Positions 13,950 to 29,003 of a stretch of 64,000 bases of DNA are shown in pieces. The notes beneath the pieces are model-generated. The model was not told where the DNA came from, searched no databases, and was given only the letters and a program-made list of their open reading frames with translations. Every line of letters starts with the position of its first letter. Positions within the stretch are counted from its first letter, which is position 1. The translations under genes were made by a program, and so were the position numbers. This DNA comes from Alphaproteobacteria bacterium (lineage in GTDB: Bacteria; Pseudomonadota; Alphaproteobacteria; SHNJ01): assembly GCA_004295055.1 (NCBI GenBank), contig SHNJ01000030.1, positions 62,001 to 126,000 on the forward strand, given 5' to 3'.

Positions 13950-14483
13950 ATGAATCGTCATTTAAAAATACTAGGTTTGATATTACTGCTGGCCGTTATT
14001 GCCGCAAAACCGGCATTGGTTTGGGCGGAAGAAGCCGCGGCTGAAGCCGGTGCAGAAGGCGGCGAGGGCGGCGGTGAAAAAGCGCCCGTCGCCGAAAGTA
14101 AAAAGAACATTATCGAAGGCGATCCCGGCAGCCCGTCGTTAAAAGGCCCCTATATCGAATTGAAACAAATGAATGTCGTCGCGATTTATCGCGGCGTACC
14201 CGTGCGGCATATGAACTATATTTTGGTTCTTGAAATGCCGGATATGGAAGAATACAGGTTCGTGTTGCAAAGAATTGAAATTTTGCGGTCGGCCATGGTC
14301 GAAGAATTGCATGTGATTGGATCGTCGCAAAAAGGCGCGTTGCTCAAAGATTATGACTTTATTAAAGATAGATTGTTAAAGGTTGCGGACAAAACTGTTG
14401 GCCAAGGCCACGTAAAATCAGTTTTGATTAAATCCACCGCCGGACGAAACTTGCCTGAATTTTATACCGTTCCGAAAAAATAA
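13950..14483 (+). CDS. FliL-like membrane-anchored periplasmic protein
   Basis: The 177-residue protein has an N-terminal hydrophobic segment (about 7-25), an Ala/Glu/Gly-rich linker (about 27-50) and a C-terminal domain. That domain (about residues 65-175) resembles the FliL periplasmic domain in pattern: a strand motif with YIELKQMNV, a middle LRSAMVEELH where FliL has its helix, then IKDRLLKVADKTVG and a final strand VKSVLIKS. FliL supports the flagellar stator. The match is by pattern only, and no other flagellar gene is in the window. It abuts thiL with no spacing, so co-expression is likely. Confidence 0.55.
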   Translation: MNRHLKILGLILLLAVIAAKPALVWAEEAAAEAGAEGGEGGGEKAPVAESKKNIIEGDPGSPSLKGPYIELKQMNVVAIYRGVPVRHMNYILVLEMPDMEEYRFVLQRIEILRSAMVEELHVIGSSQKGALLKDYDFIKDRLLKVADKTVGQGHVKSVLIKSTAGRNLPEFYTVPKK

Positions 14484-17179: not shown

Positions 17180-18070
17180 GTGAATTTAGACTTGCAAGCA
17201 ATAGAAGAGGGAAGGCGAACGGCTGCGCTGCAACAAGTCCAAAAATTTTGGGAAGCGGTGCAACAAGACGCCACATTAAGCCGTTTGCAAGAACTGGGCA
17301 ATCTGCTGTCTTATACGGATGACGGATTTTCGGGATTAAAGCCTGTCGATCCAGTTCAAATCGGGTCTGAAAAATATGGTAAATTAAAAGCGGCTTGCAT
17401 TGAATACGCCAAAGACCGATTTGCGTTGTTATTGCTATTTAAAGACAATACGCAAGGATTCTCCGATACGGATGCGCATAAGACGGTTAAAAAAATAAAA
17501 TGGTTATTGTATACAGCGCAGACCGATTATTCCGTTCTTGTGCAAGGGCAATCCGATGAAAATGTTAAAGCCGTTATCCAAGATGTGCTGAGAATGACAC
17601 TTGTTTATACAATTCGCGGCTGTTTGTCAGGATGTTATGCCGAAACTAATTTTGCAAAACCTTCTTGCTTTACGACTATTTTACCAAAATCTTTGGATCA
17701 GTTACAGATCGAGCATGCGGATACAGATTATCGGTTGATTGATCCTTTGGAAAAAATTCCTTCGGATCAAATGAAGACAATCGTTCATAATATAAAAGAT
17801 CGCAAACCGGATATCGCCACGCTCGATTTCATATATAGCCGTTTTTATGATCCCAAAAAACCGGACCATAAAAATTTAGCCAGATTTATGCTGCAACAAG
17901 CGGACACATTGGGATTTAGTCTTGCTCATTTGCCAAGTATGGGGGGCTTAATGGAGCCGGATAAAGCCTATGGGCTTATAGGTGACGTTATGGAATTAAG
18001 ATTTGATGCGCTGGCCCAAAAAGCAAATGCGGCGATTGGAACTTATGCCGGTGGCCGCGCTTCAAAATAA
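17180..18070 (+). CDS. Hypothetical protein, 296 residues
   Basis: I do not recognise this protein. It has a GTG start after a GGCAGGG stretch about 10 bases upstream. It is mostly helical by composition and has no signal peptide or membrane segment. There are four Cys, two of them in RGCLSGCYAE (about residues 151-160) in the middle. The N-terminal third is rich in Gln and charged residues (EEGRRTAALQQVQKFWEAVQQ region, about 9-29). It lies between the hppA terminator and the convergent bamE gene, so it is transcribed alone. Function is unknown. Confidence 0.7.
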   Translation: MNLDLQAIEEGRRTAALQQVQKFWEAVQQDATLSRLQELGNLLSYTDDGFSGLKPVDPVQIGSEKYGKLKAACIEYAKDRFALLLLFKDNTQGFSDTDAHKTVKKIKWLLYTAQTDYSVLVQGQSDENVKAVIQDVLRMTLVYTIRGCLSGCYAETNFAKPSCFTTILPKSLDQLQIEHADTDYRLIDPLEKIPSDQMKTIVHNIKDRKPDIATLDFIYSRFYDPKKPDHKNLARFMLQQADTLGFSLAHLPSMGGLMEPDKAYGLIGDVMELRFDALAQKANAAIGTYAGGRASK

Positions 18071-19462: not shown

Positions 19463-19537
19463 GAGTGCGTAGCTCAGCGGTAGAGCATCTGACTTTTAAT
19501 CAGAGGGTCGAGGGTTCGACCCCCTCCGCGCTCACCA
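19463..19537 (+). tRNA. tRNA-Lys (anticodon TTT)
   Basis: This is a full cloverleaf with CCA encoded. The acceptor stem is GAGTGCG pairing with CGCGCTC (one G-T wobble). The D arm is GCTC-AGCGGTA-GAGC, the anticodon arm TCTGA-CTTTTAA-TCAGA with anticodon TTT, and the T arm GAGGG-TTCGACC-CCCTC. The discriminator base is A. Confidence 0.96.
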
Positions 19538-19608: not shown

Positions 19609-19783
19609 TGATCGGGCAAAGGCTACGGCTGGCAAGCCCCCCTATAACACACCTCTCTTTATCCATTATTTATGGGCATTTTTGGCGTTTTTTATATTTC
19701 CTATTATAATATTTCCCATCTCCACTATCATGACTAATAAAGATACAATTTTTTATAGGGCCTTATTTTTATAGAGTTTTTTG

Positions 19784-19895: not shown

Positions 19896-20663
19896 ATGGC
19901 TAATTCGAATTATAAAGTAGTTACTGGTGCGGCAGCGGTATTCGCGGCGGCAGCGATGTTGGGTGGATGTTCTTCTGCGCCTAAAACAGAAGAGCAGGCA
20001 GGAGCCCCAAAAGTTTCTTATGCAGCCCCAAGATCCGGTGTTCTTAATACACTCGGTCAGGTTACCGATTTAAATCCTTCCAGACCGGCTTTGCAAGATA
20101 ATGGATTCGCGACTGTTGGTCCGGTGCGTGGCCAGCCTAATTCGGGTTTTTATACCGTTGATGCCATAGTATACAGCCCAGTGCAAAAAGCGGATGTGGT
20201 GTTAACTGGAACTATTAACGAAACCCAATACAATGCGCTTGCAGGCGCATATGCAGCCACCAAAGCGCGTCACCTTTTTTCGACCAATCGTGAGATTCAA
20301 TTTTCGTTGACCCCAGTTACTGGCGCTGAAGCCGAAGCAGCTAAATCTCGTCTTTTAAACAGAGTGTCCATAAGCACGGATAATTCTGTTGGTGTAGAAG
20401 CGTTTGTATTCGATGTCGGCAATGTAAAGGGCCGTGTAATTATTGACAACTTGTCTGCCAATGATGATTCGAAGATCGTTACCTTTACCAACCCGGGCCC
20501 ATTTTCCACCCCAGATCAAGTTAAGGCGGCTAAAGAACGTTTACTGCCACCAAAACCAATGACGGGAACAAATGACGGACGTGAACCCGCTCCTCTTTCC
20601 TATAGCGGAAATACACAATCTTTCTTTGTAGCTGCTACGAGACAGCGCGACGCTAGAGCTTAA
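19896..20663 (+). CDS. Lipoprotein of an unrecognised envelope module
   Basis: The start at 19896 is chosen for GGAGG at 19882-19886, 9 bases upstream; an earlier in-frame start lacks this. The 255-residue product has a signal peptide and a lipobox MLGGC with Cys25, so it should be a lipoprotein. After a linker, residues about 84-195 form a domain with the pattern FYTVDAIVYSPVQ, FSLTPVTGAEAEAAKSRLLN (136-155), then VEAFVFDVGNVKGRVIIDNL (167-186). This pattern is also seen three times in the next protein. The gap to the next gene is 60 bases with no terminator, so they are probably one transcript. I know no family for it. Confidence 0.75.
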   Translation: MANSNYKVVTGAAAVFAAAAMLGGCSSAPKTEEQAGAPKVSYAAPRSGVLNTLGQVTDLNPSRPALQDNGFATVGPVRGQPNSGFYTVDAIVYSPVQKADVVLTGTINETQYNALAGAYAATKARHLFSTNREIQFSLTPVTGAEAEAAKSRLLNRVSISTDNSVGVEAFVFDVGNVKGRVIIDNLSANDDSKIVTFTNPGPFSTPDQVKAAKERLLPPKPMTGTNDGREPAPLSYSGNTQSFFVAATRQRDARA

Positions 20664-20723
20664 GCTTGGGATTCTAGGTTTAAAAAATAATAACAAATAT
20701 TTTGCTATTTATGGAGCTTTCAG

Positions 20724-23700
20724 ATGGCAATTAAATTAAGAGGGTTATTGGCCGGTTTAGCAGTGGCAGTTGGCGGCGCAACAGCCCCAGCCATGGCGCA
20801 ACAAGATGCGGCCCCGCAACAACCAGCGGTCGTTACAACCGTAGTCGATAACGACAATGCGCCAAAATTTAATGGCGAAGATCAAGCCTATATCGGTTTT
20901 ACCGCCGATGGTCAGGCGCTTGGTTATGTCGGCGGCAATATCGGTACGTTCAATGTAACCGCCGATGCCTTGGCCAAAGAAATGGCCCAAGGCAAACAAG
21001 GCGATAACGGTTTCTTCGCGGTCGATAGCGATAACGGCAATAATTCTTTTGATGTTGGGTTTCAAGTTTTATCCGGTCAGGCTGCTGTTGATGCAGCGGC
21101 ATCATTAAAGCAAGTTGATCCGGCCAATATTTACACCTTTGAATTTGTTCAAGGCAAAACTATTGCCGGCACTTCGATGGTTGAAGGCGTGGGATTAACC
21201 CGGCCATTTGCGAATTCTTCGGCGGCTGAAAGTGCGGCGAATGAATTATCGAAAGCGACCGCGCGTGTAGCTTTGGCTGAACAGGCAAAATTGGCTGCGG
21301 CTAATCCGGCTGTCACAACAACCAACACGGCTCCTGTTGCTGCTACCTCGCCGGTAGAAAACAATAATGTGGCCACTCAACCGGCTGCGACGACATCGGT
21401 GTCTACGCCAGAACAAGTTGCCCGTATGATGGGTTGGAAACCGGCAAATGAAACCGGCGCAACTCAAGCGGCTGCGAATACTGTTGTGGCAGATGCCAAT
21501 AACAATGCCGCTGCTAATACGGCAGTGGCTTCGAATCCTACGTCAACACCGTCTGTTGCTACTAGTGTCGTGGAAGTGAACTCCGCTACCGTACTGCATG
21601 TAGAACAAGGCGATGCTGGTTTTCTGTTGATGCCGGCGCAAGGAAATCCTTTGGTGATTTTCCCAGCCAGCAAGCAAGTAGTAGAAGTAACCGTTAACAA
21701 AGCGGCTTTGGCGGAACAATTTGCGCAAAACGCCAACAATCAAGCTTCGGCTTATTTCCCGCAAGGTTCTTTCGGCAATTCGAATGCGATGAGCTATCGC
21801 TTATTGTCCGGGGCGGAAGCCAATACGGTATTGCAATCCGCTAGCCAGGTATTGACCGGGGCGTTGCAGCAAGTTGATAACCCAGAAGCGATCGCAGAAG
21901 CAAAAACCGGCGATGGTTTCACGCAATCGGATGATAAGGGCGATGGTTTTCTGTATACCTTGGAAGTTGTAAAGGTGGACGGTACGCCGAATACTATCGA
22001 AGTGAATAATCTGGTTTTGTCCGGCGACAATACTCACGGCGGCAAAGGCGATATTAATGCCTTTATTACGGCCTTAAAGGGCGCACAAACCTCTGTGACC
22101 ACGATTGCTCAGGTAAATCAGTCGCATATGACTGCTTCTTCTGTAGTTGCAGCGATGACTCCGACCGCGACCCCAGCGCCAGCCACGGCCCCAGTTTCGG
22201 TGCCAGCGGCAGCTAATGCCGATTCTGTGAATGATCCTGCCGTAGACACTGGTGTATCCACGATCAGCCCGGAAGCCATGAATGCTTTAAGCAATGTTTC
22301 GGCTTCTAATGCTGCTACACCAAGCGCCGTGACTGAGACGATAAGTGTTCCTTCGGTAAATACAGCGACAAGTAATTCTAACACAGTACCAGGAGCAACT
22401 GTAACGGCTTCGAGCGATATCAATCCAGATATGCTGAATTTTGCATTGGCATTTGCCAGTGGCGACATGGATTATTCCATTCTGCACACTTATAACAATT
22501 CCGTTTATGTTATTAATAATGACGGTGTTGTGCAGAAACTGGAATCTGATACCACCAATTTAGAAGAGTTATCTTCGACTGGTGCATCGTTGTTGCAGGT
22601 AACATCCGTTCCAGCAGAAGAGCAGGCGCAGATATTGCAAAGTGCAAAAGCTTCTGCAATCACAATGGTGGATGTGTTTAACCGTTATGATGCCAACAAT
22701 ACGGCTTCACACTTCGAATTGGCGGTTGCACAAGTAATTTCTATTTATGATGATGCTGTCTTCATTCAAACCCAGGATTTGCGCGGCAATGTCAGTGTGT
22801 TGCGGTTGGCGGCGCAAAGTGTGCAATCTCAGTTGGATTGTTTATCGCCTGTTTCGACATCAAATCCAGCGCCTCAAGCAGTTGCTACGGTAGATCTTCC
22901 TAATGGCTGGAGTGTGACTGGCGACATGGGCGATTCTGGCTCCAATTTAAATGTGTTTGGACTGCCTTCGGCGCAAGCAAGCAAGAATACTGCTCCAGGT
23001 CCAGTTGCAGCAGGCGCCGCACAATCATCGAGCGATGGCGTTTCGCAAGTTCCTCTTCCAGTAATTACCAACCCAGACGGTATTACTGCTGTAAATTCTG
23101 GAACTGTAATTATTAACAATCCAGACGGATCCGGACAACAACCTTTGGTTATCACAAATCCTGATGCCGGCAATAGCGCTACAGCTGTTGATTCTAAGCC
23201 AACAAATGTTGTGGCGGCTGATGAAGGTGTGAAGAATAATGACGCTTCTGTTCCAGCCGCAACAGTTGCCCAAACGCCAGATGCTAATAAGACACCAGAA
23301 AGTTCGGGATTGGCCAGGATATTGGCCGTTGGTTTTGGCATACTCAGTGGTTTATTAGGTTTGGGCTGGTTAAGAAATAGGTCTAAGCTGAACGAAAGAA
23401 TTGCCCAGTTAGAGACTGAGAACTATCTTCGATTGGACGAATTGGCCACAGAACGTTACAGACTGGCAGAAGTTTTACGGAAGCATAATATTGATCCGGA
23501 CACACATGGTTTAATGTGGAGCGATCCTAATACCAAAGATAAATTGGTGCCTAAACCAGTGTCAGCGGATAATTCAGTTGCGCCGGTTGACTCAGCCAAA
23601 ACTGATGAAATTGATATGACAGAGCAGCAATTTAATCAGTATGTCGCTTTAAGAAGTGCTGTAGGCAGCTTAATGGAAGACTACAACGGTACCCAAAAGT

Positions 23701-24191
23701 TTGTGGATGCAAATACAACACTTACGCAAACAGCCGGTTATGGAAAAGGCAGCGAAAATATCGGTGGGCCGATTGCGGAATTAAAAACCGCTGTAGAAGG
23801 CTTGTTGCCTGATCATCCGAACTCCGCCAAAGTCGACAGTGCTTTGAAAAGCTTGAAGGATGTCGGTATTGAAATGGTAGCTCCGCAAAGTTCGGTGAGT
23901 GGACCTAACGGCCCTGGTGTTGTAGCTGTAACAGCATTAACCTTAGCCGCAGGGTTGGGAGGCGTGGTTTTGAATGATCAAGCCGTTGCAATGCCGGTTG
24001 CAACATCGTTAGTTGCTGTTAATACATCGGCGACCCCAAGTGAAATGGTTGTTGGCATTGATTATGGCGATGGTATTGTTCATAAAGCGGTCGTTGAAGA
24101 TGCTGTGGTATCCAAAGCATCTTCCCCGTATGGCGTATTCATTGCCGGTCCTATGTTTGACCGTTTAATGAGAGTGCATACAAGAAATTAA
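20724..24191 (+). CDS. Large membrane-anchored repeat protein, 1155 residues, unknown
   Basis: GGAG at 20713-20716 supports the start. Residues 1-25 are a signal peptide ending AMAQ. The long periplasmic part alternates low-complexity Ala/Thr/Val/Asn/Pro linkers (about 160-285, 455-560, 705-860) with three divergent domains at about 54-150, 290-435 and 585-695. Each domain has a FQVLSGQAAVDAA-like or YRLLSGAEANTVL-like motif followed by a YTFEFV- or YTLEVV-like strand. Three NPDG/NPDA motifs lie at 783-814. A membrane helix at about 863-883 is followed by a coiled coil (about 886-920) and an acidic region; a second hydrophobic stretch (about 1064-1090) lies near the end. It resembles FimV-type proteins only in its general plan. 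Confidence 0.78.
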   Translation: MAIKLRGLLAGLAVAVGGATAPAMAQQDAAPQQPAVVTTVVDNDNAPKFNGEDQAYIGFTADGQALGYVGGNIGTFNVTADALAKEMAQGKQGDNGFFAVDSDNGNNSFDVGFQVLSGQAAVDAAASLKQVDPANIYTFEFVQGKTIAGTSMVEGVGLTRPFANSSAAESAANELSKATARVALAEQAKLAAANPAVTTTNTAPVAATSPVENNNVATQPAATTSVSTPEQVARMMGWKPANETGATQAAANTVVADANNNAAANTAVASNPTSTPSVATSVVEVNSATVLHVEQGDAGFLLMPAQGNPLVIFPASKQVVEVTVNKAALAEQFAQNANNQASAYFPQGSFGNSNAMSYRLLSGAEANTVLQSASQVLTGALQQVDNPEAIAEAKTGDGFTQSDDKGDGFLYTLEVVKVDGTPNTIEVNNLVLSGDNTHGGKGDINAFITALKGAQTSVTTIAQVNQSHMTASSVVAAMTPTATPAPATAPVSVPAAANADSVNDPAVDTGVSTISPEAMNALSNVSASNAATPSAVTETISVPSVNTATSNSNTVPGATVTASSDINPDMLNFALAFASGDMDYSILHTYNNSVYVINNDGVVQKLESDTTNLEELSSTGASLLQVTSVPAEEQAQILQSAKASAITMVDVFNRYDANNTASHFELAVAQVISIYDDAVFIQTQDLRGNVSVLRLAAQSVQSQLDCLSPVSTSNPAPQAVATVDLPNGWSVTGDMGDSGSNLNVFGLPSAQASKNTAPGPVAAGAAQSSSDGVSQVPLPVITNPDGITAVNSGTVIINNPDGSGQQPLVITNPDAGNSATAVDSKPTNVVAADEGVKNNDASVPAATVAQTPDANKTPESSGLARILAVGFGILSGLLGLGWLRNRSKLNERIAQLETENYLRLDELATERYRLAEVLRKHNIDPDTHGLMWSDPNTKDKLVPKPVSADNSVAPVDSAKTDEIDMTEQQFNQYVALRSAVGSLMEDYNGTQKFVDANTTLTQTAGYGKGSENIGGPIAELKTAVEGLLPDHPNSAKVDSALKSLKDVGIEMVAPQSSVSGPNGPGVVAVTALTLAAGLGGVVLNDQAVAMPVATSLVAVNTSATPSEMVVGIDYGDGIVHKAVVEDAVVSKASSPYGVFIAGPMFDRLMRVHTRN

Positions 24192-24236
24192 GATAGACTC
24201 CATAAATTAACCATAAATAGACTATAACTTTAATCA

Positions 24237-24269
24237 GAGCCTTGCTAGAAATAGCCAGGCTCTTTTTTT
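24237..24269 (+). terminator. Rho-independent terminator of the envelope module
   Basis: GAGCCT and AGGCTC, extended by GCTA/TAGC beyond one mismatch, form a stem of about 10 pairs with a GAAA loop at 24237-24262, followed by a T run to 24269. It lies 46 bases after the 1155-residue gene's stop codon and closes the two-gene unit. Confidence 0.85.
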
Positions 24270-24303: not shown

Positions 24304-25389
24304 ATGAAACGTCTTTTTGTTGTTTCTGTATTATTGCTGGGTCTTGCCGCTTGCGCCGCGCCGACCATGACGGGGCCGGGGGCTTCGATTGACCGGGGTT
24401 TGATCGATGCGGAGCGGCAGAAACAATATGAATTGGCGGTTGAGGAGAATTTGAAACAATATGAACGGCTGAACCGTGTCGGATTTCCGATTTTGCGTGC
24501 TAACGCGGATTGGTGTGGACGCGATGGCCGCACCCGGCCCAGCATAGGCGCTCTGATCGCCGGCACGGCCCACATGAAAGAACCAACCAAAGCGGCGTTA
24601 AAACGTGTTTTAGAAATGAATAATGATGGCGCGGTGATCACCGGCGTTCCATCCGGCACACCTGCAGCGGAAGCGGGATTGCGGCGTGGCGATCAAATCG
24701 TGTCTTTAAACGGCCAAACCGTCAGCGCGCAGACCAATTCAGCCGAATTGCTTGACGATATGAAAAAAGCCGCTGACGATTCTTTTGCCCATAAAAAACC
24801 GTTAACTTTGGCCATTAACCGCGATGGCAAATCCATAACCAAAAGCGTCTCTCCGGTTTTGGCGTGCGATTTTTATGTGGCAATCGACAATAAAGATGTC
24901 ATCAACGCGTTTGCCGACGGAAAAGGTATTGTTTTTACCAAAGGCATGATGCGTTTCGCGAACGAGGATGATGAACTGGCCGTGGTTATGGGCCACGAGC
25001 TTGGCCATAATTTAAACCATCATATTGATTCCAAGAAAACCAATGCTGCCGGCGGACTGTTGCTGGATATTTTGGCGGCGGCCGGCGGGGTTAATACTCA
25101 GGGAATGTTTAGCGGTTTGGCCGCCAGCGCCTATAGCCAGGATTTCGAACGGGAAGCTGATTATGTGGGATTATACTTAACCGCGCGCGGCGGATATGAT
25201 ATCGAAGATGCGCCAAATTTCTGGCGCCGCATGGCGATTGAAAGCCCGGCGTCTATCAAAGACAGCCACACATCCAGCCATCCAGCGACACCGGAACGGT
25301 TTTTGGCTTTGGAATCGACGGTAAAAGAAATCGAATCGAAACTGTCATCCAAACGCAAGCTGGAACCCGATAAGAATTTGAGATTCTAG
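24304..25389 (+). CDS. M48 family metalloprotease lipoprotein with PDZ domain
   Basis: This is a predicted envelope zinc protease. The start at 24304 gives a 361-residue precursor with a signal peptide and lipobox LAAC (Cys17). A PDZ domain covers about residues 95-175 (ITGVPSGTPAAEAGLRRGD). The M48 catalytic motif is HELGH, followed by NLNHH, and a third ligand Glu lies downstream in FEREADYVGLYL. The C-terminal SSHPATPERFLAL is also typical of M48 proteins. PDZ plus M48 in a lipoprotein suggests quality control of envelope proteins, like BepA or YcaL/LoiP in general role. Its neighbours give no further clue. Confidence 0.88.
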   Translation: MKRLFVVSVLLLGLAACAAPTMTGPGASIDRGLIDAERQKQYELAVEENLKQYERLNRVGFPILRANADWCGRDGRTRPSIGALIAGTAHMKEPTKAALKRVLEMNNDGAVITGVPSGTPAAEAGLRRGDQIVSLNGQTVSAQTNSAELLDDMKKAADDSFAHKKPLTLAINRDGKSITKSVSPVLACDFYVAIDNKDVINAFADGKGIVFTKGMMRFANEDDELAVVMGHELGHNLNHHIDSKKTNAAGGLLLDILAAAGGVNTQGMFSGLAASAYSQDFEREADYVGLYLTARGGYDIEDAPNFWRRMAIESPASIKDSHTSSHPATPERFLALESTVKEIESKLSSKRKLEPDKNLRF

Positions 25390-28424: not shown

Positions 28425-29003
28425 TTATTGTACCGAACGGCTATAATACCAGGTTTGATACGTTGGAGCCGACCAGTTCGAAGACCAGTAATATTGTACT
28501 GGCGCATAATAAATGCCGTTTCTAGCCTGATATTCCATGAATGACTGGCGATTCAGACTGAATCCCGGATATGTGTGCTGCTGGGTCATTTCAAAATCCC
28601 AGGTCGCTTTATCGATCGCTGTGCGGATCAATGCTCTGGTTTCTGGCAACAATACGCGTGTCATGACACCAAAGCGAATATTGTAACGGGTGAATGTTTC
28701 CCCGGCCCATGTATCCAATTCATCGGTGGTAAACCGGCTGGCTAATGTATGGATGTTGCTTTTACGAATGGAATCCCAGTCGATATTGGCTTTGATATAA
28801 TCGCACAGCGTTTGGTAATTGACAGGCAATACTTGGCGTGCATGATCGTTAATCATGCTGTCGGCCAGCCATTCGACCGGCAAAACCCGTTCTAAATGTT
28901 CGGCGGAGCGCAGTCTCGTATCCTGAATGTCGGTATCGATGGCAAAGCTAGGTTGTGCAATCGCAAGAATAGCAATGGTCAAAGCAAATATAATCGGTTT
29001 CAT
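28425..29003 (-). CDS. Secreted hypothetical protein, 192 residues
   Basis: The protein has a clear signal peptide (about 1-21, ending FAID). AGGGGA stands 5 bases before the ATG. The mature part has a helical segment ASRFTTDELDTWAGETFTRY (87-106), then LLPETRALIRTAIDK. This faintly recalls DUF2059-type periplasmic proteins, in which a TxDEL motif precedes a similar helix, but I cannot confirm it. The C-terminal 40 residues are rich in Tyr, Trp and Ser (YYAPVQYYWSSNWSAPTY). It is a single-gene unit with its own terminator. Confidence 0.65.
   Translation of the reverse strand: MKPIIFALTIAILAIAQPSFAIDTDIQDTRLRSAEHLERVLPVEWLADSMINDHARQVLPVNYQTLCDYIKANIDWDSIRKSNIHTLASRFTTDELDTWAGETFTRYNIRFGVMTRVLLPETRALIRTAIDKATWDFEMTQQHTYPGFSLNRQSFMEYQARNGIYYAPVQYYWSSNWSAPTYQTWYYSRSVQ

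Follow-up and report, generated by a model that had tools for sequence, protein, structure and literature searches.

Two adjacent genes for undescribed envelope proteins in an alphaproteobacterial genome: a candidate periplasmic scaffold or tether

Introduction

Pal and TolA are the familiar example of a lipoprotein and an inner-membrane protein that, as a pair, span the periplasm, and any lipoprotein gene lying next to a gene for a large membrane-anchored protein raises the question of whether their products are partners of a similar kind. Two such genes are found in the window examined here, which is a stretch of 64,000 nt from contig 30 of a 1.95-Mb alphaproteobacterial assembly that is 99% complete. 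The original prediction described them as a two-gene envelope module built on one undescribed repeat domain, occurring once in the lipoprotein and three times in its neighbor, and proposed that the pair may bridge the periplasm. Here, we report that an envelope unit of undescribed proteins is supported, whereas a domain shared in four copies is not borne out, and we weigh what the pair might do.

The Gene Pair and Its Expression Signals

Both open reading frames were recovered exactly where they had been placed, on the forward strand, as are all the features of the pair described below. The first (19896–20663) encodes a lipoprotein of 255 aa without family match, and the second (20724–24191) a membrane-anchored protein of 1155 aa; 60 bp separate them, and each has a Shine-Dalgarno-like site, GGAGG upstream of the ATG at 19896 and GGAG ahead of 20724. 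The GC content of the pair equals the window mean, with a lower GC at third positions (0.36 and 0.41).

A common promoter and a strong terminator had also been proposed. The sigma-70-like candidate TTGGCG-17-TATAAT (19682–19710) is present, with 10 of 12 matches, but shuffled sequences yield about as many such sites in this region. The intrinsic terminator (24236–24269) was confirmed by folding energy: an 11-pair stem (24236–24263), followed by a T run, has –16.7 kcal/mol and a z-score of –4.0, and it was overlooked by a pattern scan because the stem contains one internal mismatch. Besides a tRNA-Lys upstream of the pair, no Rfam element was found. Taken with the sorting signals described below and the absence of family matches, the spacing and the terminator support reading these undescribed proteins as an envelope unit of two genes, which would be transcribed together.

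Architecture of the Two Proteins

The assignment of the first product as a lipoprotein holds, as its N-terminus reads MANSNYKVVTGAAAVFAAAAMLGGC-SS: the signal peptide (19896–19970), with a hydrophobic core at residues 8–26, extends up to Cys25 of the lipobox (LGGC, within MLGGC), and a Ser directly follows at position +2. According to the sorting rule of Escherichia coli, lipoproteins with Ser after the lipobox Cys are sent to the outer membrane, and on the strength of this residue the protein is probably sorted there.

The large protein begins with a signal peptide of the cleavable type (residues 1–25, cut between AMA and QQ; 20724–20798), followed by three denser modules, at about residues 41–160, 286–455 and 571–712, which are separated by linkers rich in Ala, Thr, Asn, Ser and Pro. 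The low complexity ascribed to these linkers is reflected in their entropy, 3.3–3.6 bits against 3.8–3.9 in the modules. The linker ahead of the membrane helix carries the expected short repeats, NPDG, NPDG and NPDA at 783, 799 and 812 (23070–23168). The helix itself was found by hydropathy at residues 862–880 (23307–23363) and is followed by RNRSK, so that, by the positive-inside rule, the part beyond it is probably cytoplasmic. There, a charged helical stretch (residues 886–920; 23379–23483) corresponds to the coiled coil of the original prediction, and its heptad pattern is weak, with at best 44% of the a/d positions hydrophobic. The hydrophobic stretch predicted near the C-terminus was found by hydropathy at residues 1065–1083 (23916–23972).

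Is There a Shared Repeat Domain?

Four segments were compared: the lipoprotein core (residues 71–182; 20106–20441) and, in the large protein, B1 (residues 52–159; 20877–21200), B2 (residues 290–455; 21591–22088) and B3 (residues 568–696; 22425–22811). The motif by which the four copies had been recognized, F-x-L-[LT]-[SP]-[GV]-x2-A, occurs literally once, at residue 136 of the lipoprotein (FSLTPVTGA), and nowhere in the large protein, where its counterparts are FQVLSGQAA (113), YRLLSGAEA (358) and LQVTSVPAE (624). A relaxed pattern, defined post hoc, also matches these three places, with 0.02 matches expected in shuffled sequences and none in the 15,674 residues of the other window proteins; its rarity is no independent test because the pattern was fitted to the same four places. 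As for the motifs said to close each copy, Y-T-[FL]-E-[FV]-V is present in B1 and B2 and FVFDV in the lipoprotein, but neither is found in B3.

Pairwise comparisons gave a graded picture. Smith-Waterman scores against shuffles reached p of about 0.04 for B1 and B2 and about 0.08 for the lipoprotein and B2 (0.02–0.09 across all tests), while every pair involving B3 gave p of 0.65 or more. When long gaps were made cheap, the lipoprotein–B2 pair reached 0.024–0.028 and B1–B2 0.11–0.17, and in these alignments the proposed motifs were not consistently paired; nor were they in register in MAFFT alignments of the four segments. Comparison of single sequences by hhalign ranked B1–B2 as the best of 28 pairs, collinear over 68 columns, with an E-value of 0.02 that is not significant once all 28 pairs are counted. 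When the segments were scored against unrelated window proteins cut into 167 chunks, the best score of B2 was 50, which matches its 48 with B1, and the maxima of the segments ranged from 44 to 50. A block common to all four segments was, at four widths, no better than in shuffles (20–24 of 60 reached the same score), and a profile of B1 and B2, searched against its own genome with E-values up to 10, recovered these two segments alone and neither the lipoprotein nor B3.

Therefore, the five repeat tests allow an old duplication that gave rise to B1 and B2, perhaps together with the lipoprotein, and offer nothing for B3. The significant similarity among all four segments that the original prediction implied did not emerge from the pairwise, profile or block tests; of the two outcomes named in advance, significant profile alignments and unrelated folds, neither was obtained. 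All these tests rest on single sequences, have little power and are compatible with a distant common origin. The similarity of B2 to B1 and to the lipoprotein is suggestive, and it is plausible that B1 and B2, and perhaps the lipoprotein core too, share an origin.

For the mature lipoprotein, structure prediction with AlphaFold2 without homologs reached a mean pLDDT of 35.4, and for residues 41–715 of the large protein one of 36.0; both values are too low for claims about folds. At this very low confidence, the predicted order of elements is alike in the four segments: two to three strands, a helix, further strands in B1 only, a helix starting near the motif and two or three strands (in the lipoprotein core, three strands, two helices and two strands), with an additional helix afterwards in the lipoprotein, B1 and B2. 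This similar order agrees with the earlier description, as a weak signal that may also derive from local composition.

Relatives and Genomic Context

Searches of Pfam, NCBIfam, PHROGs and the PDB with full-length and segment queries returned at most sub-threshold chance matches. For neither gene was a convincing relative found in G001, the second genome of the order (same family, 57% complete), or among same-class genomes, of which as many as 385 were searched, and none in two scans of GTDB contigs with exact short peptides, which miss distant relatives; likewise, no relative of the large protein was found among plasmids and viral contigs. Some of the genome collections may omit records very close to the genome of the window. 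Three weak matches were rejected: one in G015 (E 0.005) falls in the Ala/Thr/Pro linker, one in G195 (E 9e-4) spans only some 55 residues close to the lipoprotein C-terminus and has a stop in its frame, and one in G090 (E 0.005) contains two stops.

In G001, the genes that flank the pair are found in other contexts and the pair is not seen beside them. There, the genes for BamE and a cytochrome-c chaperone are followed by an ORF and by a gene that we take, from reading its translation, to be plsX-like, and the ORF upstream of the M48 protease gene is, by the same kind of reading, presumably isocitrate-dehydrogenase-like. The pair thus occupies a place at which the two genomes differ in gene order, and is not within an operon conserved in G001.

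The tRNA-Lys (19463–19537) immediately precedes the pair, at the point from which the gene order is no longer that of G001; a check for insertion at this tRNA found none of its sequence repeated, over 12 bases or more, elsewhere in the window. Just past the terminator, a gene at 24304–25389 encodes a lipoprotein with PDZ and M48 metallopeptidase domains, with a 38% identical relative in G001. Further ORFs of the window, at 17180–18070 (E 1) and at 13950–14483 and 28425–29003 (E 0.01), have no Pfam match. Beside BamE in G001 there is an ORF whose 5' end is open (L021, 2485–3471, minus strand); its C-terminus looks flagellin-like and is preceded by a repeat-rich part.

Possible Roles of the Pair

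At its most cautious, the pair reads as lineage-restricted envelope proteins whose internal repeats are hypothetical. We consider a lineage-restricted envelope unit in which the two proteins act jointly as a periplasmic scaffold or tether to have a probability of roughly 40%. In its favor are the two ORFs and their spacing, the hydrophobic segments and the composition of the linkers, the terminator, the lack of relatives in the searches above, the weak resemblance of B2 to B1 and to the lipoprotein, and the similar element order predicted, at very low confidence, for the four segments. The lipoprotein would carry its lipid anchor, probably in the outer membrane, and the large protein would be exported and held in the inner membrane by helix 862–880, displaying three compact modules of alpha/beta type on disordered linkers in the periplasm and a helical part in the cytoplasm. 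The lipoprotein would meet the extracytoplasmic modules, forming a structural scaffold or tether, which we infer to be the role that best fits this topology. Against it, neither a conserved partner nor a known binding domain was found, and the pair is absent beside the flanking genes in G001. An equally probable account is that two unrelated orphan envelope proteins are adjacent by chance and that the common pattern is the by-eye look of Ala-rich alpha/beta sequences; the failure of the four-way block search to exceed shuffles, the chance-level scores of B3, the comparable scores of unrelated window proteins and the inability of the B1–B2 profile to reach the other two segments all fit this account, whereas the collinear B1–B2 match, the lipoprotein–B2 p-values and the similar order of predicted elements speak against it. 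By comparison, a homotypic trans-envelope bridge, built from one undescribed alpha/beta domain with a single copy in the lipoprotein and three in the inner-membrane protein and restricted to one sparsely sampled order (two genomes), appears unlikely.

Known systems offer partial parallels. As in Pal-TolA, an outer-membrane-type lipoprotein adjoins an inner-membrane protein that has much of its length in the periplasm; unlike in that system, contact between the two proteins is what we infer, and no sequence relation of Pal-TolA to the pair was found. SPOR-domain proteins such as FtsN and RlpA are likewise lipoproteins or membrane-anchored proteins in which a small alpha/beta module is joined to a linker of low complexity. 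From the b-a-b-b-a-b order predicted for B1, and from how the stretch VVLTGTINETQYNALAG...FSLTPVTGAEAEAAKSRLL of the lipoprotein looks, we suspected that the modules are a diverged peptidoglycan-binding domain of this kind, by which the pair would bind the cell wall. This is quite improbable, since the Pfam profile (PF05036) matches neither protein even at an E-value of 10 but detects, above the cut-off, three proteins encoded elsewhere in this genome and separate from the pair, and hhalign against their SPOR domains came back empty (the best alignment, to B3, has E 0.03 and covers 19 columns). Still less credible is that the large protein is a polar landmark like FimV/HubP, with a periplasmic wall-binding part, one membrane helix and a cytoplasmic recruiting part. 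The order of compartments is the same, with the helix at 862–880 between an exported periplasmic region and a cytoplasmic C-terminal one, but FimV/HubP has a periplasmic LysM-like domain, a membrane helix, a C-terminal FimV/TPR domain and an extensive cytoplasmic part (PMC12918733), whereas Pfam scans of the pair found no LysM, neither Pfam nor NCBIfam found a FimV/TPR domain, and the large protein has a long extracytoplasmic and a short cytoplasmic part.

Should the domain prove to be shared, it would count as a new building block for connecting the two membranes, and its presence in each of the partners would point to self-recognition. For now, this is an orphan envelope pair in a poorly sampled lineage, which is a common situation, and it will mainly serve as a target once relatives are sequenced.
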